Below, in pieces: positions 26,716 to 57,165 of a stretch of DNA of 64,000 nucleotides; position 1 is the stretch's first letter; every line of letters starts with the position of its first letter. The translations under genes and the position numbers were made by a program. This stretch comes from an uncultured Chlorobiaceae bacterium. Lineage in GTDB: Bacteria > Bacteroidota > Chlorobiia > Chlorobiales > Chlorobiaceae. The DNA lies in assembly GCA_903895195.1 (NCBI GenBank), contig CAITSZ010000039.1, forward strand, positions 17,292 through 81,291, given 5' to 3'. The notes beneath the pieces were generated by a model. The model worked only from the letters and a program-made list of their open reading frames with translations, was not told where the DNA came from and did not search any database.

Positions 26716-26977
26716 TCAATTCTCCCTTTTGATAAACTTGTTCTATGAATTAGAGAAAACCTCCGGATAGTAAGCTTAGAGCAGTATAAACTTTAGGATA
26801 CGCTAAAAATCATGAGATTGAGCAGTCAGATTGCCTTATGTTGAGGCTTCAATAGTTTGAAAAAAAGTCATATACTCCAAGACATTGTTATCAATATAAT
26901 TACATAGAAAGTCAAAGCACTGACAAGAGCCGTTTCGCAGTGATTTTTTGACTGGCAACCAGTTCAAATTCAAGAAA

Positions 26978-27613
26978 ATGAAAGTAATAGCAATCAACGG
27001 AAGCCCCAAACATGATGGAAATACCTGGCATGCACTGACAGGTGTCGGCCTGCAACTTCATGAAAACGGTATTGAGTTTGAGATTATTCATATAGGAAAC
27101 AAGGCTGTCAGAGGATGTATGGCATGCGGAACATGTGCGAATAATAAAGATGAGAAATGCAGCATAAGCACCGATCCTGTAAATGAATGGATTCAGCAGA
27201 TAAAAGAAGCTGACGGCATAATTCTTGGTTCGCCGGTTTATTATGCGGGCATTGCAGGAACAATGAAATGTTTCCTCGACAGAGCATTTTATGTCGCAGG
27301 GGTTAATGGAGGATTGTTCCGCCAGAAAGTTGCCGCTGCAGTTGTTGCTGTTCGCCGCACAGGAGGTTCTACCACCTTCGACAGCCTCAACCATTATCTG
27401 ACCTATTCCGAAATGATTCTTGCCACCTCAAATTACTGGAACATCTCGCATGGCAGAACGCCGGGTGAAGTGCTGCAGGATGGCGAGGGAGTGCAGATCA
27501 TGGATGTCCTTGGCCGGAATATGGCATGGCTTCTCAAAATGCGAGAGGCAACAAAAGCTTCGCTGCCCCCACCCGCCCAGGTTGAAAAAATTTATACCCA
27601 CTTCATAAGGTAG
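26978..27613 (+). CDS. Flavodoxin-like NADPH-dependent FMN reductase family protein
   Basis: MKVIAINGSPKHDGNTWHAL; GCMACGTC; IILGSPVYYAGIAGTMKCFLDR. Confidence 0.88.
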   Translation: MKVIAINGSPKHDGNTWHALTGVGLQLHENGIEFEIIHIGNKAVRGCMACGTCANNKDEKCSISTDPVNEWIQQIKEADGIILGSPVYYAGIAGTMKCFLDRAFYVAGVNGGLFRQKVAAAVVAVRRTGGSTTFDSLNHYLTYSEMILATSNYWNISHGRTPGEVLQDGEGVQIMDVLGRNMAWLLKMREATKASLPPPAQVEKIYTHFIR

Positions 27614-28204: not shown

Positions 28205-29698
28205 ATGACAGTATCGGATGCCCTTAAGCATCAGCTTGAGGAATCCACAGGCAATGACTACAACTGCTGCTACCAGTGCGGTAAATGCACAGCTGGTTGC
28301 CCGGCGGGAACATTTATGGATAATCCTCCAGCCAGAATCATGCGCCTTGTTCAGGCCGGCTATATGGAAGAGGCACTCAAAAGCGATGCCCTCTGGTACT
28401 GTGTAGGCTGCCAGACCTGTACGTCACGATGTCCCCAGAATATGGAGATTGCTGCCACCATGGACTCTCTAAGAGCTCTGGCACTTGAAAAGAATATTAT
28501 TTCAGAAGACAAGGCAAAAAAACTTGTCAATGCCTTCCACCTCTCTTTCCTCAACAACATTCGTAAACATGGACGTCTTGAGGAACTTGCCCTCGTCAAC
28601 AGCTACAAGCTTCGCACAAAAACCTTTCTTCAGGATGCCTCATCAGGCTTCAAGATGATCAAAGAGGGCAAAATCAATCCATTGCATAGCTTTACCGGTA
28701 AAGGCGGAGTAAAGGCAAAGGATCAGATAGCCAGAATTTTTGCAGCTTCCGAAAAGCCATCTCACTCATCGGTTCCTAAACGACGCCCGATAAAAAAAGA
28801 GTTTAAAGCCAAGGCTCCCCTGTCGATCAAGCCAGGCATGACCATCGGCTACTACCCGGGATGCTCTCTGAGCGGCACTGCTAAGGAATTCGATATTTCA
28901 GTGAAAAAAATGTGCTCCCTGCTTGGCATTAAGTTGCAGGAAATAGATGACTGGAACTGCTGTGGAGCTACTTCGGCTCATGCCACAAACCACAAGCTTG
29001 CCCTGCTTCTTCCCGCAAGAAACCAGGCACTTGCCGATTCTCAGGGACTGAGTTGTGTCCTTGCTCCTTGCGCCGCCTGCCAGAACCGTCAGGTAACAAC
29101 CCGTCAAGCCCTCATAGATTCGGCCGAGCTTCGTGAAGAAGTTCGCTCAATTACCGGAATAGAACCGACATGTAGTGCGGAATTTATCGGTGTTACCCAG
29201 TTGCTTGAAGCAATGGACCCTGAGGAGATTAAAAAAAGGGTTACAAAGCCTCTCACAGGGCTTAATCTTGCCTGCTATTACGGATGCCTGCTGGTTCGAC
29301 CAATGGAGGCAATGGGTTTTGATGATACTGAAAACCCTCTGAAGATGGAGGTAATCATGACCGCTCTTGGAGCTTCACCTGTCGATTGGGCATTCAAAAT
29401 AGAGTGCTGTGGAGCAGGTCTCACGCTGGCACAGCAACCACTAGTTGAAGAACTCACGCACAAGATTGCTAAAAATGCAGCTATAAACGGTGCCGACGCA
29501 TTTGTCGTAGCCTGTCCCCTCTGCCATTCCAATCTTGACATGCGCCAGGAAAGCATGAGAAAGCGCTTCGGTGATGTTAAACCGATGCCGGTTTACTATA
29601 TTTCAGAATTGGTGGCCATTGCTTGCGGAGCCAATCCATCTGACGTTGCTGTGGGTAAACATTTTGTTCCTGCTCTCGATCTGGTTTCGAAATTTTAA
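28205..29698 (+). CDS. Fused HdrC-HdrB heterodisulfide reductase-like subunit
   Basis: CCYQCGKCTAGCP and CVGCQTCTSRCP clusters followed by two CCG domains (NCCGATSAH...CAAC; ECCGAGLT...CPLC). Confidence 0.9.
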   Translation: MTVSDALKHQLEESTGNDYNCCYQCGKCTAGCPAGTFMDNPPARIMRLVQAGYMEEALKSDALWYCVGCQTCTSRCPQNMEIAATMDSLRALALEKNIISEDKAKKLVNAFHLSFLNNIRKHGRLEELALVNSYKLRTKTFLQDASSGFKMIKEGKINPLHSFTGKGGVKAKDQIARIFAASEKPSHSSVPKRRPIKKEFKAKAPLSIKPGMTIGYYPGCSLSGTAKEFDISVKKMCSLLGIKLQEIDDWNCCGATSAHATNHKLALLLPARNQALADSQGLSCVLAPCAACQNRQVTTRQALIDSAELREEVRSITGIEPTCSAEFIGVTQLLEAMDPEEIKKRVTKPLTGLNLACYYGCLLVRPMEAMGFDDTENPLKMEVIMTALGASPVDWAFKIECCGAGLTLAQQPLVEELTHKIAKNAAINGADAFVVACPLCHSNLDMRQESMRKRFGDVKPMPVYYISELVAIACGANPSDVAVGKHFVPALDLVSKF

Positions 29699-29873
29699 AA
29701 GAAAAGAAATATTTCTGCTGGTCTTCGATGATTTAAACGATCATCATCCTCTGCAGGGCTTTCGGGGCAATTTCGTGCATAATTGAACATAATGAACCGG
29801 GGTGCTGTTCTTTCTTTGCACCATTTACCAGAGGTACCGTCATTATGGCGGTTTCATACTAAATGATTGAATT

Positions 29874-31844
29874 ATGGCGAAAATAGGGGTATTCATCTGT
29901 CACTGCGGCGAAAACATAGGCGCAAAGGTTGACTGTACCAAACTGGCTGCTGCAATGGGAGAACACCCCGGCGTTGCAGTTTCGGTTGAGTATAAATATT
30001 TCTGTTCTGATCCTGGCCAGGAGAGCGTTAAACGGGCAATCCGCGACAATAACCTTACAGGTGTCGTTGTTGCCGCCTGCTCACCAAGAATGCATGAAGC
30101 AACGTTCCGCAAGGCATGTGCTGAAGCCGGTCTGAACCCTTATCTTTGTGAAATTGCAAACATCCGCGAGCAGTGCTCATGGGTTCATACGGATAGTGAC
30201 CAGGCGACCGAAAAAGCCATGGACATCACCCGTTCAATGGTCGAGAAAGTTAAACGCAATAATAAACTTCAGCCTATTGAGGTACCTGTCACCCGTCGCG
30301 CCCTTGTAATTGGCGGAGGAATTGCAGGCATCCAGGCGGCACTCGATATCGCCAATGCAGGCCAGGAGGTAGTACTGGTTGAGCGTGAACCGACCCTTGG
30401 CGGACACATGGCTCAACTGTCAGAGACATTCCCTACGCTCGATTGTTCCCAGTGCATCATGACTCCGCGCATGGTCGAAGCCGCTCAGCACCCCAAAATC
30501 AGGCTGCTTACCTATGCTGAAATTGAGAGCGTTGATGGTTATATCGGAAACTTTTCCGTCCGCGTCCGTATGAAGTCGCGCTACGTTGATATAGATAAAT
30601 GTACCGGCTGTGGCGACTGCATTACAAAGTGTCCTGCAAAAAAAATCTCAAGTGAGTTTGATTGCGGTCTCGGAAAACGCACAGCCATTTATACCCCTTT
30701 TGCCCAGTCTGTCCCCAATATCCCAGTCATTGACAAGGCGAATTGCATCTATTTCAAAAACGGCAAATGCAAAATCTGCGCTAAAACATGCCAGTGCGAC
30801 GCTATTAACTTCGATATGGAGGATACCTTTGAGGATCTGGAAATAGGCGCAATTGTTGTGGCCACAGGTTTTCAGGTTCAAAATAATACCATGTACGGTG
30901 AGTATGGCTACGGAAAATATCCCGACGTCATTAACGGCCTTCAATTCGAGCGTCTCGCCTCGGCAAGCGGACCTACTGCAGGCAAAATCCTTAGACCTTC
31001 GGATGGCGTTGAACCGCAAACAGTAGTCTTTATCCAGTGTGCCGGATCGCGCGACCCGTCAAAAGGGGTTCGCTATTGTTCCAAGATTTGCTGCATGTAC
31101 ACTGCAAAGCACGCCATGCTTTACTCGCATAAGGTTCATGGCGGAAAAACCCACATTTTCTATATGGATATCCGTGCTGCCGGCAAAGGATACGACGAGT
31201 TCAGCCGCAGGGCGATAGAAGATGATGAAGCCGCATATCTACGCGGCCGGGTGAGCAAGGTATGGCAGGAAAACGGCAAACTGATGGTCAGGGGCGTTGA
31301 CACCCTTCTTGGCAGACCTGTAGAAATAGCGGCAGATATGGTTGTACTGGCTACCGCAATTATTGCACAGCCCGATGCGAAAGAGTTTGCCAAAACAATC
31401 GGCATAGGTTATGACGAATACGGTTTCTACAACGAGGCTCATCTTAAACTCCGCCCTGTTGAATCATCCACAGCTGGAGTTTTCCTTGCGGGAGCCTGCC
31501 AGTCTCCTAAAGATATTCCCGATTCAGTTGCCCAGGCATCGGCAACTGCAAGCAAGGTACTTGCTCTGTTCAGCAAGGATATGCTTGAGAGAGAACCGGT
31601 TGTTGCCACAAATAACGAAGCAACCTGCGCAGGATGCTGGGGATGCGTCCTGGCGTGTCCATACAATGCTATCGAGCAGAAAGATATTCTCGACCGTTCC
31701 GGAAAAGTCATCAAACGGGTCGCATCCGTCAATCCCGGCTTATGCCAGGGCTGCGGCACCTGTGTTACCTTCTGCCGCTCGAACAGTCTTGATCTGGCAG
31801 GATTTACTGAAAAACAGATTTTTGCAGAAGTGATGGGTCTCTGA
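29874..31844 (+). CDS. hdrA: HdrA-like FAD/Fe-S subunit
   Basis: FICHCGENIG; ALVIGGGIAGIQAALDIANAG; multiple CxxCxxCxxxC clusters. Confidence 0.93.
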   Translation: MAKIGVFICHCGENIGAKVDCTKLAAAMGEHPGVAVSVEYKYFCSDPGQESVKRAIRDNNLTGVVVAACSPRMHEATFRKACAEAGLNPYLCEIANIREQCSWVHTDSDQATEKAMDITRSMVEKVKRNNKLQPIEVPVTRRALVIGGGIAGIQAALDIANAGQEVVLVEREPTLGGHMAQLSETFPTLDCSQCIMTPRMVEAAQHPKIRLLTYAEIESVDGYIGNFSVRVRMKSRYVDIDKCTGCGDCITKCPAKKISSEFDCGLGKRTAIYTPFAQSVPNIPVIDKANCIYFKNGKCKICAKTCQCDAINFDMEDTFEDLEIGAIVVATGFQVQNNTMYGEYGYGKYPDVINGLQFERLASASGPTAGKILRPSDGVEPQTVVFIQCAGSRDPSKGVRYCSKICCMYTAKHAMLYSHKVHGGKTHIFYMDIRAAGKGYDEFSRRAIEDDEAAYLRGRVSKVWQENGKLMVRGVDTLLGRPVEIAADMVVLATAIIAQPDAKEFAKTIGIGYDEYGFYNEAHLKLRPVESSTAGVFLAGACQSPKDIPDSVAQASATASKVLALFSKDMLEREPVVATNNEATCAGCWGCVLACPYNAIEQKDILDRSGKVIKRVASVNPGLCQGCGTCVTFCRSNSLDLAGFTEKQIFAEVMGL

Positions 31845-31892
31845 AAAAGAGCTCTCCCTCAATACTGAACAACTGAACTTTGCTACCGGAGT

Positions 31893-32348
31893 ATGCCGAT
31901 GAGTGAAACTTTTGAGCCCGAAATCATTGCGTTTGTCTGCACCTACTGTACCTATGCCGGCGCTGACCTTGCAGGGACAAGCCGGTTGAAGTACGCTCCT
32001 AATGTGCGCATTATCCGTCTTCCATGCACGGGAAGGATCAGCCCGATGTTTATCCTTAAAGCTCTGCAGAAAGGCGCTGATGGGGTTCTTATAAGCGGAT
32101 GCCACCCTGGCGACTGCCATTTTACCCATGGAAACTATCACGCACGGCGGAGATGGATGGTTTTTCGTGCACTGCTTGACTTTATTGGTATTCCACCTGA
32201 GCGGGTCAAGTACTCCTGGATCAGTGCAGCTGAAGGTGTAAAGTTTGCTGAATTCATAAACAGCGTCACTGAAGATATCCGGAAACTTGGTCCTTTTGAG
32301 CAGTACTCTCAATTGATTGAGCAAACACAGGCTCCAGCGTCACTATAA
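31893..32348 (+). CDS. MvhD/FlxD-like hydrogenase delta [Fe-S] subunit
   Basis: FVCTYCTYAGADLAGTSRLKYAPNVRIIRLPCTGRI...GCHPGDCHF. Confidence 0.9.
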   Translation: MPMSETFEPEIIAFVCTYCTYAGADLAGTSRLKYAPNVRIIRLPCTGRISPMFILKALQKGADGVLISGCHPGDCHFTHGNYHARRRWMVFRALLDFIGIPPERVKYSWISAAEGVKFAEFINSVTEDIRKLGPFEQYSQLIEQTQAPASL

Positions 32349-32358
32349 TAAATACGGA

Positions 32359-33189
32359 ATGAGTATCGAGGAACAATACAGAACGAGGGCAAAGGAACTT
32401 CTTTCAGGCGGTGCTGTCAAAATGGTTATCGGGTATGGCAAGGGCTCTACCTCCGATAGACGTCGACCACTCTTTATCAGTTCAACTGATGAGGTAGATA
32501 GGCTTGTGCTTGATGACGCCTGCATACAGAACCTCTCAGGATATCTTGTCAGTGAAGGCCTTCTGAGCGACGAAAAGCGTGTTGCTGTCTTTCTCCGTCC
32601 TGAAGGAATACGCGCCATCAATATTCTGGCCGCTGAATCTCAGCTTGATGCCGAGCAGATTGTCATTTTTGGATTTGATGTCATCGGCACTGAAGTCAAG
32701 GCATTAAAAGGAATCCATGTTGAAGAGTTCTCCGATGTCATTAATTCTATCAAGAAGGGTGCTCCCGAAGCGAAAGAAGAGGAGCTCTTTGAGAAAATAG
32801 AAAAGATGAGCCCTCAGGAGCGCTTTTCTTTCTGGCAGGAGGAGTTTGCCAAGTGCATCAAATGCTATGCCTGCCGTCAGGCTTGCCCCATGTGTTACTG
32901 CCGTCGGTGCATTGTCGACAGCAATCAGCCGCAATGGGTCAACACCTCTTCGCATACACTCGGAAATTTTGAATGGAATATCGTCAGGGCATTTCACCTT
33001 TCAGGACGATGTGTGGAGTGCGGGAACTGTGATCGGGCATGTCCGGTCAATATTCCACTTCGTCTCATCAATCACAGGATGGCTGAGGAGGTCCTTGGGG
33101 CATTCGATCACTTTGCCGGCATGAGCAAAACCCAGGAACCTGTGCTTGCCAGTTTTAAAAAAGACGATTCCGAGACATTCATTCTCTAA
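32359..33189 (+). CDS. FlxC-like 4Fe-4S protein
   Basis: CIKCYACRQACPMCYCRRC and CVECGNCDRACPVNIP; located within the hdr/flx operon. Confidence 0.78.
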   Translation: MSIEEQYRTRAKELLSGGAVKMVIGYGKGSTSDRRRPLFISSTDEVDRLVLDDACIQNLSGYLVSEGLLSDEKRVAVFLRPEGIRAINILAAESQLDAEQIVIFGFDVIGTEVKALKGIHVEEFSDVINSIKKGAPEAKEEELFEKIEKMSPQERFSFWQEEFAKCIKCYACRQACPMCYCRRCIVDSNQPQWVNTSSHTLGNFEWNIVRAFHLSGRCVECGNCDRACPVNIPLRLINHRMAEEVLGAFDHFAGMSKTQEPVLASFKKDDSETFIL

Positions 33190-33202
33190 GTAACAAACTC
33201 GT

Positions 33203-34216
33203 ATGACAAAAATCCTTTTCAGCGATAAACTTGACAACTGTGTCGAACGATGGAAATCAGCCGGTTTAACTGTTATTGGTCCCGTTCAACGTGCCAATAT
33301 ATCAACCTACGCCGCAGTTGAACATGCTGCCGAATTAGATTTAGGGCTTATTCTTACCGACCGCTCGATCAAGGATCTTTTCTTTCCGCAGAGCGAGCCG
33401 ATGTTGCGTTATACGATCAAAAAAGAGTCCATTGATACTGATGAATGCCTGCCGCCTTCAGGGCCGAGAATCATCTTCGGTGCCCGGCCTTGTGATTCTT
33501 CAGGGATGGCAATTGACGATCCCCTTTTCGGATGGGACTATAAAGATGAATACTGGTTTCAGAGACGCAATGAATCGGTTATTGTAACAATTGCATGCAC
33601 AAAAGCGGATGATTTCTGCATGTGCACCTCTCTCAAAATGGCCCCGGACAGCTCGAAAGGCTCTGATGTCCTGCTTAGACCACTTGCTGGCGGAAAGGGA
33701 TGGGTAGTTGAGGAAGTGACTGACCGGGGACGGGAAGCTTTCAAAACCATTACTGATATTCTGCAGGAGAGCTCCGACACCGCCGCCCCTTTGGCTGTTG
33801 TTGAAAAAAAGTTTGACCTTGATTCCTGTGTCACCTGGCTGCAGAATCCTGAAAATTTCGAAAGCCGGTTCTGGAAAGAGATATCAATGCGCTGTATCGG
33901 CTGTGCGTCGTGTACCTTTCTCTGCCCTACCTGTCATTGCTTTGACATTCAGGATGAAGGTGATACCTACACCGGGATCAGACGGAAAAACTGGGACAGC
34001 TGCTCCTTTGCCCTCTTTACCATGCACACCTCAGGCCATAACCCCCGGTCAACACAATCCGCACGCTGGCGCCAGAGAATCATGCACAAATTCAATTATT
34101 TTCCAGGCAAATTCAGTGTGAACAGCTGCAGCGGATGTGGCCGATGCTCACGCCAGTGCCCTGTTGACATGGGAATCACCGAGACCTTACAAGAGATATC
34201 AAAATTATCGCAGTGA
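33203..34216 (+). CDS. FlxB-like / sulfhydrogenase beta-subunit-like 4Fe-4S protein
   Basis: IIFGARPCDSSGMAIDD; CIGCASCTFLCPTCHCFD; CSGCGRCSRQCPVDMG. Confidence 0.82.
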   Translation: MTKILFSDKLDNCVERWKSAGLTVIGPVQRANISTYAAVEHAAELDLGLILTDRSIKDLFFPQSEPMLRYTIKKESIDTDECLPPSGPRIIFGARPCDSSGMAIDDPLFGWDYKDEYWFQRRNESVIVTIACTKADDFCMCTSLKMAPDSSKGSDVLLRPLAGGKGWVVEEVTDRGREAFKTITDILQESSDTAAPLAVVEKKFDLDSCVTWLQNPENFESRFWKEISMRCIGCASCTFLCPTCHCFDIQDEGDTYTGIRRKNWDSCSFALFTMHTSGHNPRSTQSARWRQRIMHKFNYFPGKFSVNSCSGCGRCSRQCPVDMGITETLQEISKLSQ

Positions 34217-35079
34217 CAGAAATCATCCACAACACACAACAGAACATCTACAAACCGGCCATCATGAAAATTGTGGGCCGTCACGACGAAGCGCCAGGCG
34301 TGAGAACCATGAGACTGGAGTTTCAGGATGCTGCCGACCATGAGTTTTTCAAGGAGACCTACCGCACCGGCATGTTCGGCCTCTACGGCGTTTACGGCGA
34401 GGGGGAGAGCACCTTCTGTGTCGCAAGCCCTGAAACACGCAAGGATTATATCGAATGTACCTTCCGCCAGTCCGGCAGGGTAACCTCGGCACTTGCGAAT
34501 GCGGATATCGGCGACCTGATAACGTTCAGAGGGCCTTACGGAAATCGATTTCCCATTGAGGAGTTCCATGGCAAAAACCTCCTGTTCATTTCAGGCGGCA
34601 TAGCTCTCCCTCCAACGCGAAGCGTTATATGGTCATGCCTTGACCAGCGCGAGAAATTCGGCAAGGTCACTATTGTTTACGGGGCACGTACTGTGGCTGA
34701 TCTGGTTTATAAGCATGAACTTGAGGAGTGGCAGGAGAGAAGCGATGTCGATCTCGTGTTGACTGTTGATCCGGGCGGAGAATCTCCAGACTGGAAAAAC
34801 AGGATTGGATTTGTACCGACTGTCCTTGAAGAGGCAGCTCCCTCTCCGGATAACTGTATTGCTGTGATTTGCGGCCCGCCAATCATGATCAAATTCACCC
34901 TGATCTCGCTTAAAAAGCTCGGGTTCGACGAATCAAACGTCTATACGACTCTTGAAAACCGGATGAAATGCGGACTTGGCAAATGCGGAAGATGCAATGT
35001 CGGATCGGTCTATGTATGCAAAGAGGGACCAGTCTTTACAGCGGCTGAAGTTGCCAGGATGCCGGCTTCCGACCTATAA
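34213..35079 (+). CDS. FlxA-like / sulfhydrogenase gamma FAD/NAD(P)-binding subunit
   Basis: FRGPYGNRFPIEEF; LLFISGGIALPPTRSVIW; CGLGKCGRCNVG; 4-bp overlap with preceding gene. Confidence 0.88.
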   Translation: MTEIIHNTQQNIYKPAIMKIVGRHDEAPGVRTMRLEFQDAADHEFFKETYRTGMFGLYGVYGEGESTFCVASPETRKDYIECTFRQSGRVTSALANADIGDLITFRGPYGNRFPIEEFHGKNLLFISGGIALPPTRSVIWSCLDQREKFGKVTIVYGARTVADLVYKHELEEWQERSDVDLVLTVDPGGESPDWKNRIGFVPTVLEEAAPSPDNCIAVICGPPIMIKFTLISLKKLGFDESNVYTTLENRMKCGLGKCGRCNVGSVYVCKEGPVFTAAEVARMPASDL

Positions 35080-36723
35080 AAGAGTGATTGAATAAAAATT
35101 CTCCGGCTGATGAAAATCGGCCGGGGCTGTTGATGCCGCCTCCCACCATGGAAACAAGCCATACTCTCCCCTGCCTGAAGATATGCAGCACTGCAATGCA
35201 ACTCTCTGCCCATTCATGAACGGCTCCAGCAGCCTATAGGAAAACTCCATCCCGAAACTTTCAGCACTCTTTACTATGCTGATATCCCCCATCCATCGCT
35301 CCTCTGAAAGGATGGCATACCCTTCAGCTCTTTTTCTTGGAGCGTCGAATCGCAATGCTACCCAGTTGCCCTCCGCAGTCATTTCAAACTCGAGATAACC
35401 GCAAGAGAAATCAGTATGAGCGATAAAGAGCTCCGAAACGCCATACTGCCATAGTCCATCAGTAAACGTGCCTGCAAGAGCTGCAGAAGGTGGTTTTATG
35501 GAAAATAGTGATGAATTGCTGTTACGGGTTGTCCAGCGTACAAAAGGGGCTTCAGGTGCAGCTATGGCAGCCTGTATCGAAAGCAGTTGTTCAACTGCAG
35601 CAAATCCCCCGGGCGGGATTTCCCTTTCGGCAAACCTATAGCCGACAAATGAGCCTTCGATCAGCTTCAGAGGAAAGAGAGTCTCCGGGATTGCCGTCAA
35701 CTTGCTCAACTTTATTGGTGGCCATAGAAGACCGGCCCAACCTTTCGAAGGGTCATGAACATCGACAACGCTCTCGACCCCGCATGAAGCAAGAAGCTTT
35801 TCATCAAACAAGCCGATACACTGTACTTCAAGATCAAGTTCTACACCCGCATCTCGCTTTGCAGCAGTTTTCATGCGAGCAGCAAGTTTTAGAACATCTG
35901 TTGCAGTTGCCCCTCCCTTGTTGTAAATGAAGTTGGCATGGTGTTCGCTGACTACGGCACCCCCTTCACGACTGTCCTTAAAACCAAGTTCCTCAAAAAT
36001 AGTCCCGCTTGAACGACCGGCAACATAGTTGTTCTTAAAGGTCGAACCGCAGCTCGGAAAATCGAAATGATGCTTTTGATTGCGCTCTTCCTCAAACCTG
36101 TCCATCTGAAGTTTGATATCCTCTTGCGAGCATGTCTCAGGAAAACGAAGAAGCACAGCAATAACTATGGCAGGATTATCCATCAGAGAGGTTTTCTTGT
36201 AACCATGAAAAACCTCTTCAGGGGTCATCCACCGCAATCGTCCGTCAATAGTCATTGTCTGGATACCGCTGGTAACTGCAGAAATTTCACCTCCAAAGCA
36301 GCGGGCATTCATTCTGACCGTAGATCCAATCTGACCTGGAAGCCTGTAAAGCCACTCTCCCCCTCCCCTACCACATGAAAGCAGCTCTTCGGCAATAAGG
36401 GTGTTGTCTGCACCTGCCTCGCACCAGAGTTCATCATCGGATATCCAGCACATCCGTTGCATTCGGTCTAATGAGATAACTATACCAGGGAATCCGGAAT
36501 CGGAAAAGAGGATATTACTTCCCTTTCCCATAATGGCAAGAGGAAGTTTATGCTCGCTGTTCCAAAAAAGAAGATCGGCAAGTTCTGAAGGGGTTCCGGG
36601 ATGAGCAAGATAACGAGCTCTCCCCCCTATCTGGTAATAGGCACGTGAAGCAAGAGAAACATTGGATTCAAAACTACAGGGAAGAGATAACTCATGCATA
36701 AGGTAGAGGCTTTTGATGGTCAT
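35074..36723 (-). CDS. murB: UDP-N-acetylenolpyruvoylglucosamine reductase MurB with extra C-terminal CBM9-like domain
   Basis: MGKGSNILFSDSGFPGIVI; LPGQIGSTVRMNARCFGGE; FPSCGSTFKNN; GGAVVSEHHANFIYN; about 240 extra residues after the MurB fold. Confidence 0.88.
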   Translation of the reverse strand: MTIKSLYLMHELSLPCSFESNVSLASRAYYQIGGRARYLAHPGTPSELADLLFWNSEHKLPLAIMGKGSNILFSDSGFPGIVISLDRMQRMCWISDDELWCEAGADNTLIAEELLSCGRGGGEWLYRLPGQIGSTVRMNARCFGGEISAVTSGIQTMTIDGRLRWMTPEEVFHGYKKTSLMDNPAIVIAVLLRFPETCSQEDIKLQMDRFEEERNQKHHFDFPSCGSTFKNNYVAGRSSGTIFEELGFKDSREGGAVVSEHHANFIYNKGGATATDVLKLAARMKTAAKRDAGVELDLEVQCIGLFDEKLLASCGVESVVDVHDPSKGWAGLLWPPIKLSKLTAIPETLFPLKLIEGSFVGYRFAEREIPPGGFAAVEQLLSIQAAIAAPEAPFVRWTTRNSNSSLFSIKPPSAALAGTFTDGLWQYGVSELFIAHTDFSCGYLEFEMTAEGNWVALRFDAPRKRAEGYAILSEERWMGDISIVKSAESFGMEFSYRLLEPFMNGQRVALQCCISSGRGEYGLFPWWEAASTAPADFHQPENFYSITLL

Positions 36724-36862
36724 CAGAAACTGACCTTTACAACAAGAACTGACTAAAAATGAAAAGAAAACAGACGAAAATGGATAAATTCCATATTTTT
36801 CAGAGTCAAAACGCCTTCCGGCGTTCAATCTATATATTCAGAAACCCATTATCGCTCATACC

Positions 36863-52717: not shown

Positions 52718-55700
52718 CTAAAAGGTGATTACTGATCCTTTTTGTGCTTGTTTCTTCATTACATCGACCCACCCGGTACCCGAAAGTATTTCAGCAAGTT
52801 CAACAACAATATGCCGGGGTTCAATTCCAAGATCGAGATTCCTTCCAAGTCCCTGAACACAGGATGGACAATTTGTCAATATGACTGCGTTTTCTTTTCC
52901 GTGCATAACTGCCGTTATAGCATCTCTTTTTCGGTGAAGCATGGAATCGGTAATATCGGGTCGTGAGAGTGCCAGCGTACCAGCTTCTGAGCAGCAATGC
53001 GGAACGGAGGTCATATCCCCGAAACCACCAATAGCTGTAAGTGTTTGATGCGCTTTACCAGAGAGAGAATCATGGCAAGGGGCATGATAAAGGTATTCTC
53101 CATTACCTTCCAGCTTCAAGCCTTTATCAAGAGCATAGGCCGCAATATCAATAATTTTTCCACCGAAAAGCTTGCCGGTCTCAATGGCATCGAGCCCCTC
53201 CATACAGGTACCGCATGTGACAACGCAAGCATCAAAATCAAGGTAGGAGAACATCTCTCTTATCTGACTGAACATTACGGTATTGCGAAGGACAATACTT
53301 GAATACTGATCTGTCTTGGCATTGACATGAGCAGGAAATCCGCAGCAGAGAAACGGTGGCGGCAACACAATCCTTACACCAAGCTCAAGCAGCACATGAA
53401 TTGCCGCCATTGAGATTGAAGAGTTCATGCGCTCGGAACCACAGCCGGGGAAATAAAAAACGTTACTTTTGACCTCTCCGGATGGCTCAAAAACAATTAC
53501 CTGATCAGAAGCACATTCCGGTAGAATATCGCGCAAGGTCCCTTCGGGTACAGGTGGGACAGGCGAACGCAGAAGCCTTAACGGATAGAGATCAGGGGAA
53601 TCAAGTTCCGGTTGCATCGGAGCGGAAATTTTATTGCCTGCACGCTGAACAGCTCCACCGATCCTGAGAACAGTTCTGCGGAATAGGGCATTAAATACCG
53701 GGGAACGACTGTCGAGATATTTCAAAGTCAACTCTGTGATCGGTGAAGAGTGTTTGTAACCCCATTCTGAAAGAATTTCGCGTTCCAGCACCGAAACTTT
53801 ACCGCTGTCGATATCTACCGGACATGGCTTAAGGCATTTATGGCAGATTGTGCAGTGATCGGCAACCTCTTCCAGCCACTTCAGAAGCGCAAAATCAGTT
53901 GAACGCTCTCGCTGGGCATCAAAAAGAAGCGCTTCGATCAATGAGCCAATAGCAAGATTCTTGTTTCGCGGATGATAGAACATTCCTCGAGAGGGATAGT
54001 ACACACAGCAATCGGTCTTGCACTTACCGCACCTGATACAGTAGTCAACCTTTTTTGAAAGCTCTTCTATCTGGGCACGCCTGAGAATATGCGCCTCAAG
54101 TTCGAGCAAATTGAACGACGGGGTAAAAATATGATCAAGCGCTTCATAATCTTCCAGCTTTCCCGGGTTCATGATCCCTTTAGGGTCTACTTTGAGGCGA
54201 TATCGGGAAAGTTGTTCGACGATAGCAGGATCAAGGTACTTGAGTTTGGTAACACCTATTCCGTGCTCACCAGAAACAACACCACCCAGAGAGACAACTT
54301 TTTCCATGACATTGTCGATCACCTTGTCGGCACGCTCAAGCATGGGCCTGTCGTTGGAAAGTACCGGAACATTGACATGAACATTGCCATCGCCGGCATG
54401 CATGTGCGTAGCAAGCACTATACGTCTGTCGCGGACATAGGTATATGCTTTTTCAAAGGCCACCTGCATTTCAGGATACCCCTGCACCAGCTCTCCAATT
54501 TCACGGCTCAGCTCCTGAATAATTTCAAGTGAACGCAGAGAATCCTGGGGGGCGAGTAAAATCTTTTCATCGAACAAGCGGCAAAGCTCGAGTCCTGCTG
54601 GAATTTTTGAGGCAAACCGCTCACCATCTTCATTAACGTTTTTTGTAGCAAAAATAGTGCGTGAACGCTCTACAAAGCTATGCTGCGCATATCGTTCTTC
54701 TGTAATATTGAGTTCATCAATAAAGCGGGAAAATACGGCAAGGGCTTCAAGAGGAATTACAATATCCTCATTGAGCTTAAATGCATTGGTTCGTCGTGCA
54801 ATGGCGCCAAGCTTTTTACGATCGGCCCAGAAACGAACAGCATCTGCATTGTCTCCGGCCAGAAACATCATTGTATTGGGATGGTTCTTAAGGAGAGTTT
54901 TCAAGCGTTCAATACCGTTCTCCACCTCGGCGGGCAAATTACCGGCTATATCGATAAGAAGAACGGCCTTTGGAGTCTGAGCCCTTGGAGCCTTTACCTT
55001 GTAGTCGATAGCCCTTATATATTCATCATCAAAATGCTCGAGGGCAAGAAGCGCTTCTTTATTCTCAGAATGGAGAGGGAATATTTTAGAGAGCTCAAGA
55101 ATCACCCGGCTGGCCTCATCCATGTCAGGCCCGAAAAATTCAAGACAGAGTGTTCTCTTTTCAGGATACTTCGGATAAAGCACAAAAACAGCCGAAGTAA
55201 TAACCCCGTCAGTTCCCTCCTTCTGAAGGCCAGGAACTCCACCAAGCGCCTTGTTGGTAATATCTTTCCAGAGTCCTTTTTTCCGGATATCGGTACCAAG
55301 CAGCTCAATGCGATCAATCCTCTTTCCCGACTGATTCCATACCTCAAAAGTTACGGTATCCTCATGCAGGATTTTCCTGAGATGGTGATCAACACGTTTT
55401 ACTGTCCAGTTTTCACCCGACGGCATTGCCATTCGCCATTCAAGCAGGTTATCAATACAGGTACCCCATCGAACAGCCATCTTTCCGCCTGCATTTTCGG
55501 CAATGTTGCCACCGACAGTGCAGGACCATTCACTTGTCGGGTCAGTAGCAAAAACAAGTTTATGCTCGTCAGCCTCTTCCATAGCTTTTTCAGTGACAAC
55601 CCCTGCTTCTACTTCAATCACAGAAGCCTGAGATATCTGATCGTTTTCAAGCTGAAAATCCCGAACCGAGATACCCTTGATGTGATTGAGTTTTTCAACG

Positions 55701-56374
55701 TTAATGATCACACACCTTGATCTCAAGGGTACAGCGCCTCCGGTAAGCCCAGTTCCTGCTCCGCGAGGAATGATGTGCAGGCCGAGCCCGGCAATTGCTG
55801 TAATAAGAGGAGCAACCTGCGACTCCTGATCGGGGGTCACCACAGCAACTGGAAGATGAAGCCTCCAGTCGGTAGCATCGGTTGCGTGGGCTGCAAGGGA
55901 GAATGGATCAAAAAGGACATTTTTAGCGCCTACAACCCCGCCAAGTTCTTTTTTCATTCTACGGCGCAGGTCTGGCGTTTTTTCAACTGCAGAGCGGAAG
56001 CGCTCAAGTTGCTCACGTACCGCTACAACAATAGCTAAAACCCGGGTTTCACCGTTTGCCATATCAGCAATGGTATCGAGTTCGTGAAACGCCCGTTCAA
56101 ACAGGCGCTTACGACGAGCGGCAGAATCAACAAGCTCCTGAAAAAGGTAGGGATTTCGGCGATGGATAAGAATCTCTCCGATAATACCCATGAGCAAACG
56201 TGCAGACCTGCCTGTAACCCGCAGCTCACGCAGTTCGTCAAGAAACCTGACAATATTTGGTCCCAGCAGAAAAGATATCGCCTGCCTGTCACCGGCAGAG
56301 GTATAATTATACGGGATTTCTCGGGGGGAACTGGTTATTTGTTTCACTCTCTCTATGCCTGTGCTTATAGTCAT
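52718..56374 (-). CDS. Large FAD-linked oxidase / Fe-S dehydrogenase (GlcD-like plus GlpC-like CCG domains, DUF3683 N-terminus)
   Basis: PRGAGTGLTGGAVPL; HMHAGDGNVHVNVPV; CIRCGKCKTDCC; CTICHKCLKPCP; CCG motifs. Confidence 0.9.
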   Translation of the reverse strand: MTISTGIERVKQITSSPREIPYNYTSAGDRQAISFLLGPNIVRFLDELRELRVTGRSARLLMGIIGEILIHRRNPYLFQELVDSAARRKRLFERAFHELDTIADMANGETRVLAIVVAVREQLERFRSAVEKTPDLRRRMKKELGGVVGAKNVLFDPFSLAAHATDATDWRLHLPVAVVTPDQESQVAPLITAIAGLGLHIIPRGAGTGLTGGAVPLRSRCVIINVEKLNHIKGISVRDFQLENDQISQASVIEVEAGVVTEKAMEEADEHKLVFATDPTSEWSCTVGGNIAENAGGKMAVRWGTCIDNLLEWRMAMPSGENWTVKRVDHHLRKILHEDTVTFEVWNQSGKRIDRIELLGTDIRKKGLWKDITNKALGGVPGLQKEGTDGVITSAVFVLYPKYPEKRTLCLEFFGPDMDEASRVILELSKIFPLHSENKEALLALEHFDDEYIRAIDYKVKAPRAQTPKAVLLIDIAGNLPAEVENGIERLKTLLKNHPNTMMFLAGDNADAVRFWADRKKLGAIARRTNAFKLNEDIVIPLEALAVFSRFIDELNITEERYAQHSFVERSRTIFATKNVNEDGERFASKIPAGLELCRLFDEKILLAPQDSLRSLEIIQELSREIGELVQGYPEMQVAFEKAYTYVRDRRIVLATHMHAGDGNVHVNVPVLSNDRPMLERADKVIDNVMEKVVSLGGVVSGEHGIGVTKLKYLDPAIVEQLSRYRLKVDPKGIMNPGKLEDYEALDHIFTPSFNLLELEAHILRRAQIEELSKKVDYCIRCGKCKTDCCVYYPSRGMFYHPRNKNLAIGSLIEALLFDAQRERSTDFALLKWLEEVADHCTICHKCLKPCPVDIDSGKVSVLEREILSEWGYKHSSPITELTLKYLDSRSPVFNALFRRTVLRIGGAVQRAGNKISAPMQPELDSPDLYPLRLLRSPVPPVPEGTLRDILPECASDQVIVFEPSGEVKSNVFYFPGCGSERMNSSISMAAIHVLLELGVRIVLPPPFLCCGFPAHVNAKTDQYSSIVLRNTVMFSQIREMFSYLDFDACVVTCGTCMEGLDAIETGKLFGGKIIDIAAYALDKGLKLEGNGEYLYHAPCHDSLSGKAHQTLTAIGGFGDMTSVPHCCSEAGTLALSRPDITDSMLHRKRDAITAVMHGKENAVILTNCPSCVQGLGRNLDLGIEPRHIVVELAEILSGTGWVDVMKKQAQKGSVITF

Positions 56375-56406
56375 TAACTTGAAAAAAAAAATTATATGTC
56401 TAACAT

Positions 56407-57165
56407 CTACAACCTTGCTCCACCGGAAATCTCTAAAATCTGCCCTGTAATAAAAGCAGCATCGTCTGAAGCGAGAAAAAGTGCGCATCGGGCGACATCG
56501 TCCGGGGTAGCAACTCGTCCGAGGGGATAACGAGAGGCACAATCCTTCTGAAGCATCTCCCAGCGTTCTGCACCAAGAGCAGTGACAAAAGCGGGAACTG
56601 CAACAAGAGCCGGGGCAAGCGCATTAACCGTTATGCCGTAGCGGCCCAGTGACAATGCAAGTGAACGGGTAAAGGCGTAAATGCCGCCTTTGGCAGCAGA
56701 ATAGGAGAACTGATTCGGGCTCCCCCGATAGACAAGCGAACTCATATTCACTATTTTACCGAAACCCTGAGGCTTCATAACCCTTGCTGCCTCACGGCAC
56801 GACAGAATACATGACTTAAGGTTAAGATCGAGATTGGCACTCATTTTAACGTAGTCGATATCTTCGACATCAGCAGCCGGTTCACAATCACCACCGGCAA
56901 TATTTACGACTATATCAAGCTTGGCGAACCGATCTATTATCTGCCGGTAGAGTGACTGGATTTCATCTTCATGCATGACATCAGCCTGAATTGAGAACCC
57001 GCTGCCCCCGGCTTCTTGCAGGAACTGAAGTGTTTCAGCGCAGCCTGAAGCATTGATATCGCTTACAATGACATGAGCCCCCTCCGAGGCAAAACAAAGA
57101 GCCACTGCCCTGCCAATTCCACCTGCAGCTCCAGTTATGAGCGCAATCCTGCATGAAAGTCTCAT
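56407..57165 (-). CDS. SDR-family oxidoreductase (FabG-like)
   Basis: ALITGAAGGIGRAVAL; NIAGG; YSAAKGGIYAFTRSLAL. Confidence 0.93.
   Translation of the reverse strand: MRLSCRIALITGAAGGIGRAVALCFASEGAHVIVSDINASGCAETLQFLQEAGGSGFSIQADVMHEDEIQSLYRQIIDRFAKLDIVVNIAGGDCEPAADVEDIDYVKMSANLDLNLKSCILSCREAARVMKPQGFGKIVNMSSLVYRGSPNQFSYSAAKGGIYAFTRSLALSLGRYGITVNALAPALVAVPAFVTALGAERWEMLQKDCASRYPLGRVATPDDVARCALFLASDDAAFITGQILEISGGARL

Follow-up and report, generated by a model that had tools for sequence, protein, structure and literature searches.

Anaerobes such as Desulfovibrio vulgaris possess FlxABCD-HdrABC (Hdr/Flox) complexes (Ramos et al. 2015; Ferreira et al. 2023), which comprise the same seven functional modules as the operon presented here, including an NAD(P)H input subunit, the MvhD connector and HdrABC. 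As is characteristic of these systems, all seven modules are encoded together, and the NAD(P)H-binding FlxA contains a [2Fe-2S] site. Unlike in Desulfovibrio, HdrC and HdrB are fused, DsrC is not encoded in the genome and the host is phototrophic. An alcohol dehydrogenase gene, which borders on the Desulfovibrio operons (PMC4287179), is not adjacent either. With the methanogen complexes of the HdrABC-MvhAGD and HdrABC-Fdh/Frh types (5odc, 7bkb, 8rvu), the operon shares HdrA, HdrB, HdrC and MvhD with all cluster cysteines, while its FlxC resembles the C-terminal domain of FdhB that docks in the methanogen complexes. By contrast, the input module is FlxAB (NAD(P)H) instead of a hydrogenase or formate dehydrogenase, and CoM/CoB is not expected to be the substrate. 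FlxB and FlxA are also homologous to the beta and gamma subunits of Pyrococcus furiosus sulfhydrogenase-1 (9nez), but hydrogenase subunit genes were not found in the operon, which does not belong to sulfhydrogenase 1 or 2. A literature search revealed no publication on the operon in Chlorobiaceae, though an earlier mention, e.g. by Ramos et al. 2015, is possible.

Within the window, i.e. the whole analyzed stretch of 64,000 nucleotides, positions 28205-35079 contain six collinear plus-strand ORFs. The sequence-only reading had taken them for six consecutive Hdr-Flx genes, which was confirmed by the ORFs and by Pfam, NCBIfam and PDB sequence searches. The first gene, hdrCB (28205..29698), encodes a protein of 497 aa composed of an HdrC part with two [4Fe-4S] clusters (residues ~1-185), a linker (~185-211) and an HdrB part with two CCG domains (212-497). 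It is followed by hdrA (29874..31844), whose product is of the long form (656 aa) with an FAD domain, Fer4 inserts and the bifurcation-site motif C389/C402/C406/C407 plus K412, and by mvhD/flxD (31893..32348) for a [2Fe-2S] connector of the FlpD family. At its C-terminal end, the product of flxC (32356..33189) carries a dicluster ferredoxin domain that is related to the Hdr-docked beta subunit of the FdhB/FrhB type. This gene starts with ATG, but an alternative in-frame TTG exists upstream at 32317 that would result in an overlap with mvhD. flxB (33203..34216) encodes a sulfhydrogenase-beta/AsrA-like Fe-S subunit with a Fer4_22 domain, and flxA (34213..35079; GTG start) a sulfhydrogenase-gamma/AsrB/PyrK-like protein with FAD, NAD(P)-binding and [2Fe-2S] moieties.

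The genes are separated by gaps of 175, 48, 7 and 13 bp, and flxB and flxA overlap by 4 bp, a spacing which suggests that all six genes are co-transcribed. No coding or terminator-like feature was detected in the 175-bp gap between hdrCB and hdrA (29699..29873 on the plus strand), where a second promoter could be located. A promoter and terminator scan yielded no more sites than were obtained with shuffled sequences. Upstream of the operon, a gene for an Isf-like iron-sulfur flavoprotein (26948-27613, plus strand) with an FMN_red fold and a CX2CX2CX7C motif was identified, which occupies this place in the nearest species only. It is possibly a non-conserved partner of the ferredoxin or flavodoxin type. 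The murB gene on the opposite strand (35074-36828) encodes a protein of 584 aa with a C-terminal extension of ~240 aa that gave no Pfam match; this long-form MurB is kept beside the operon across Chlorobiaceae. The neighbouring genes, which vary by clade and are either lineage-specific or housekeeping genes (purL, aminotransferase, murB), gave no clues to the substrate.

Assignment of the subunits was consistent across the methods. Pfam detected CCG twice plus Fer4 in HdrCB, HdrA-type FAD/Fer4 domains in HdrA, FlpD in MvhD/FlxD (4e-53), Fer4 in FlxC, Fer4_22 in FlxB (4e-31) and NAD_binding_1 plus DHODB_Fe-S_bind in FlxA. The best NCBIfam matches were HdrB (6e-42), HdrC (5e-21) and HdrA2 (4e-231), the sulfhydrogenase beta subunit for FlxB (4e-42) and the gamma subunit for FlxA (5e-54). 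The scores for the CoM/CoB heterodisulfide reductase equivalogs remained below the cut-offs (HdrB 143.8 vs 345 bits, HdrC 75 vs 160, HdrA2 769 vs 1100). Among solved structures, HdrA matched 5odc_A at 6e-204 and MvhD its counterpart at 1e-44. The C-terminal half of FlxC is similar to the beta subunit of Hdr-bound formate dehydrogenase (3e-22; 9t1s, 7bkb, 8rvu), which docks on methanogen HdrABC-MvhD. This is in line with FlxC connecting FlxAB to MvhD. Thus, HMM searches identified the HdrA/B/C, MvhD and Flx modules and did not assign the last three genes to an unrelated complex.

One might still argue that FlxB and FlxA constitute a sulfhydrogenase- or AsrAB-like module for another enzyme, and that HdrCB, HdrA and MvhD form a separate unit. 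The closest curated families and structures of the two proteins are indeed sulfhydrogenase beta/gamma and AsrA/AsrB (1e-35 and 8.5e-53 to 9nez), and a second FlxB/FlxA-like gene pair of the sulfhydrogenase beta/gamma type exists elsewhere in the genome (G000:C11:42857-43144 / L120). However, both operon proteins lie far under the NCBIfam cut-offs for the sulfhydrogenase and Asr subunits, the second pair is encoded at a separate locus, and flxC, flxB and flxA come after mvhD in an unchanged arrangement not only in Chlorobiaceae but also in Bacteroidota, Planctomycetota, Firmicutes and Acidobacteriota. Two separate units are therefore very improbable.

The proposal that both CCG domains of the HdrB part carry full cysteine sets for the non-cubane clusters was borne out by the alignment to 5odc_B, in which 10 of 10 cysteines are kept (C220, 252, 253, 289, 292; C361, 401, 402, 437, 440). 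These positions we take to be the cluster ligands in 5odc (Wagner et al. 2017). Both HdrC clusters align with those of solved bifurcating heterodisulfide reductases. A CCG domain is also present in a 1274-aa single chain encoded on the minus strand at 52718-56542, together with a D-lactate dehydrogenase-like FAD domain and Fer4 clusters. FlxA contains its [2Fe-2S] site at Cys 253/258/261/269, which is invariant in Chlorobiaceae; the cofactor is predicted to be NAD(P)H, as NADH and NADPH are indistinguishable by sequence. All cofactor cysteines of the six proteins are invariant across 49-54 Chlorobiaceae sequences, and dN/dS ratios of 0.02-0.11 revealed purifying selection on the six genes. With this degree of conservation and the gene order, the gene set is not a product of chance.

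The HdrA residues C389/C402/C406/C407 and K412 correspond to C386/C399/C403/C404 and K409 of 5odc_A, numbering being counted from the alignment, and agree with the motif close to the FAD in a bifurcating HdrA (type I). K409 has been named a key residue of HdrA (PMC12054007). Conceivably, HdrA serves as a simple electron conduit, and the enzyme reduces a disulfide (or polysulfide) with NAD(P)H or ferredoxin without bifurcation, since HdrA2B2C2 of Methanosarcina acetivorans also performs direct ferredoxin:heterodisulfide reduction (PMC5296606). This alternative is unlikely, though not negligible: the full four-cysteine motif and the lysine of bifurcating HdrA show no variation among the HdrA sequences compared (49 from Chlorobiaceae, 15 from outside), and modules for NAD(P)H and for ferredoxin are both present. 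Judged from its sequence, the complex is probably a cytoplasmic, reversible flavin-based electron-bifurcating enzyme of the FlxABCD-HdrABC type acting on NAD(P)H, ferredoxin and a disulfide, whose thiol in Chlorobiaceae would not obligatorily be DsrC. The suggestion of the sequence-only reading that a bifurcating complex with a substrate other than CoM/CoB is encoded here is thus supported at the sequence level.

The predicted fusion of HdrC and HdrB in one polypeptide proved correct: hdrCB is one uninterrupted reading frame, which stays in the same frame throughout its 497 aa. An assembly artefact or frameshift as the source of the fusion was ruled out, since an unbroken frame of the fused length recurs across Chlorobiaceae genomes. 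An AlphaFold model of HdrCB (pLDDT 80) gave TM scores by target of ~0.9 to HdrB chains, whereas similarity to HdrC chains was weak (0.51-0.56). That the fusion fixes the stoichiometry, as had been pointed out, holds in a trivial sense, as the two subunits are present at 1:1 anyway. A precedent for the fusion is HdrD of HdrDE, in which HdrC and HdrB also form one chain. HdrD, however, is membrane-complexed with the cytochrome b HdrE, flavin-free and non-bifurcating.

Fused hdrCB was detected in 84 of 86 Chlorobiaceae species genomes, including 65 of 65 of high quality, but in none of the nearest sampled families of the same order. Weaker matches in these families, down to E = 3e-40, would represent HdrB-like proteins unrelated to hdrCB, such as SdhE. 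Among about 50 loci from Chlorobiaceae, all those on sufficiently long contigs keep the gene order of the operon. The same order (hdrC-hdrB, hdrA, mvhD, flxC, flxB, flxA) with separate hdrC and hdrB genes exists in Bacteroidales/Prevotellaceae, Scalindua, Syntrophomonadaceae and one Vicinamibacterales contig. Hence, the fusion is a trait of Chlorobiaceae and not peculiar to the host genome. Outside the family it occurs on one Phycisphaerae contig (L086; hdrCB 61% identical) and in one of three Anaerolineae copies (L097). Separate hdrB and hdrC genes, a feature of FlxABCD-HdrABC, were absent from all Chlorobiaceae examined but are not essential for membership in this group as the modules are intact. 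The Phycisphaerae operon (L086:7702-14457) is 54-77% identical to those of Chlorobiaceae, and in the HdrA tree it is sister to the Chlorobiaceae proteins (support 97/99). This position suggests that the fused form was laterally transferred, but the contig may also be mis-binned. At the Anaerolineae locus (L097:4740-9429), hdrC-hdrB pairs occur three times in succession among hdrA and flx genes, and one pair is fused.

The host genome (G000; 2.49 Mb, 98.7% complete) is that of a Chlorobium-type green sulfur bacterium. Its hdrCB is 91-94% identical to that of several uncultured Chlorobiaceae and 82% identical to that of Chlorobium ferrooxidans DSM 13031. The host had been described as a probable phototrophic sulfur oxidiser. 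Phototrophy is in line with the encoded Fenna-Matthews-Olson (FMO) protein (1e-224). Sulfur oxidation, on the other hand, is doubtful beyond what a sulfide:quinone reductase might do, because no DsrC-family gene was found and a dissimilatory DsrA is likewise missing from the genome. A dsrA match elsewhere in the genome reached only 86 bits (cut-off 393) and was taken as an assimilatory-type reductase. The missing dissimilatory DsrA is consistent with C. ferrooxidans, which lacks a dsr cluster (PMC8232776).

These observations bear on the disulfide partner. In a literature search, a substrate of bacterial Hdr-Flx complexes was found demonstrated in one case only, DsrC in Desulfovibrio. According to PMC10504309, which cites Ferreira 2023, FlxABCD-HdrABC of D. 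vulgaris interacts directly with DsrC. It could thus be supposed that the same complex uses DsrC, or another protein of the TusE/DsrC fold, as its thiol/disulfide partner in Chlorobiaceae and is tied to sulfur oxidation, all the more as DsrC is encoded in 49 of the 65 high-quality genomes. However, the other 16, i.e. the host and 15 further members with the operon, possess no DsrC-family gene, so that DsrC cannot be the required substrate in this family. Its role as obligate partner is refuted here unless the gene was missed in all 16 assemblies, and a DsrC-dependent complex tied to sulfur oxidation is very unlikely, though DsrC could be used where it is present. DsrC is also missing from C. 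ferrooxidans and from most sampled operon carriers outside the family. For the DsrC-less Syntrophomonas BUT1, the need for an unknown carrier had already been pointed out (PMC6687939). Thus, DsrC is not a general partner of these complexes.

Most likely, the partner would be a thiol shared by all Chlorobiaceae, either of low molecular weight or a small protein. N-methyl-bacillithiol (N-Me-BSH) is the leading candidate, by presence: it is the redox-responsive thiol of Chlorobaculum tepidum, whose synthesis gene has been characterised (PMC6282198), and bshC is encoded in the host genome and in C. ferrooxidans. No ortholog of the bacillithiol disulfide reductase YpdA/Bdr above the curated cut-off was found in 86 Chlorobiaceae, weak matches probably being generic thioredoxin-reductase-like flavoproteins. 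Thioredoxin-reductase or FNR-type proteins could instead reduce N-Me-BSSB. As BshC is missing from most outside operon carriers, bacillithiol was rejected as the universal Hdr-Flx substrate and is a candidate for Chlorobiaceae only. The specific reading of HdrCB-FlxABCD as an (N-methyl-)bacillithiol disulfide reductase/thiol oxidase that generates NADH by confurcation in the light (photoreduced ferredoxin + thiol -> NADH) is distinctly unlikely. If true, a heterodisulfide-type bifurcating enzyme would for the first time be seen to act on a bacillithiol and to work downstream of a photosystem.

For the bifurcating complex with a non-DsrC thiol, homology to solved Hdr complexes points to an electron route from NAD(P)H via FAD and [2Fe-2S] of FlxA to FlxB, FlxC, MvhD/FlxD and the FAD of HdrA. 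There, electron pairs would be split, one electron taking the low-potential branch via the HdrA Fer4 clusters to ferredoxin, the second taking the higher-potential branch through the HdrC part to the two HdrB non-cubane clusters. These clusters would cleave or form the disulfide, cleavage proceeding in two one-electron steps. Midpoint potentials of -320 mV for NADH and -500 mV for ferredoxin were used for the energetics. Computed with these textbook values, bifurcation amounts to ~0 kJ for a -140 mV disulfide and to about +15 kJ for a -220 mV pair, i.e. the enzyme would work near equilibrium. Due to these energetics and a strongly reduced ferredoxin in the light, the reverse reaction from thiol and reduced ferredoxin to NADH would be favoured. 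When ferredoxin is photoreduced, the complex may thus produce NADH by confurcation (Fdred + 2 RSH -> 2 NADH + RSSR), while in the dark it may run in the opposite direction and spread fermentative NADH between ferredoxin and the disulfide. A NuoF-type NADH-binding subunit of complex I was not found in the host genome, which makes another, soluble link between NADH and ferredoxin plausible and useful. The complex would serve to keep photoreduced ferredoxin and NADH in balance with a thiol other than DsrC.

The enzyme is of a known type but has a fused architecture that is lineage-wide in Chlorobiaceae, and the only demonstrated partner protein, DsrC, is excluded as a requirement here. Since the complex is universal in Chlorobiaceae irrespective of DsrC, the family offers a natural case in which complex and known substrate are separated. 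The substrate question is testable in this family because laboratory work is done on one of its members, Chlorobaculum tepidum (PMC6282198). The answer bears on how a phototroph links photoreduced ferredoxin to NADH where complex I lacks the NADH module.
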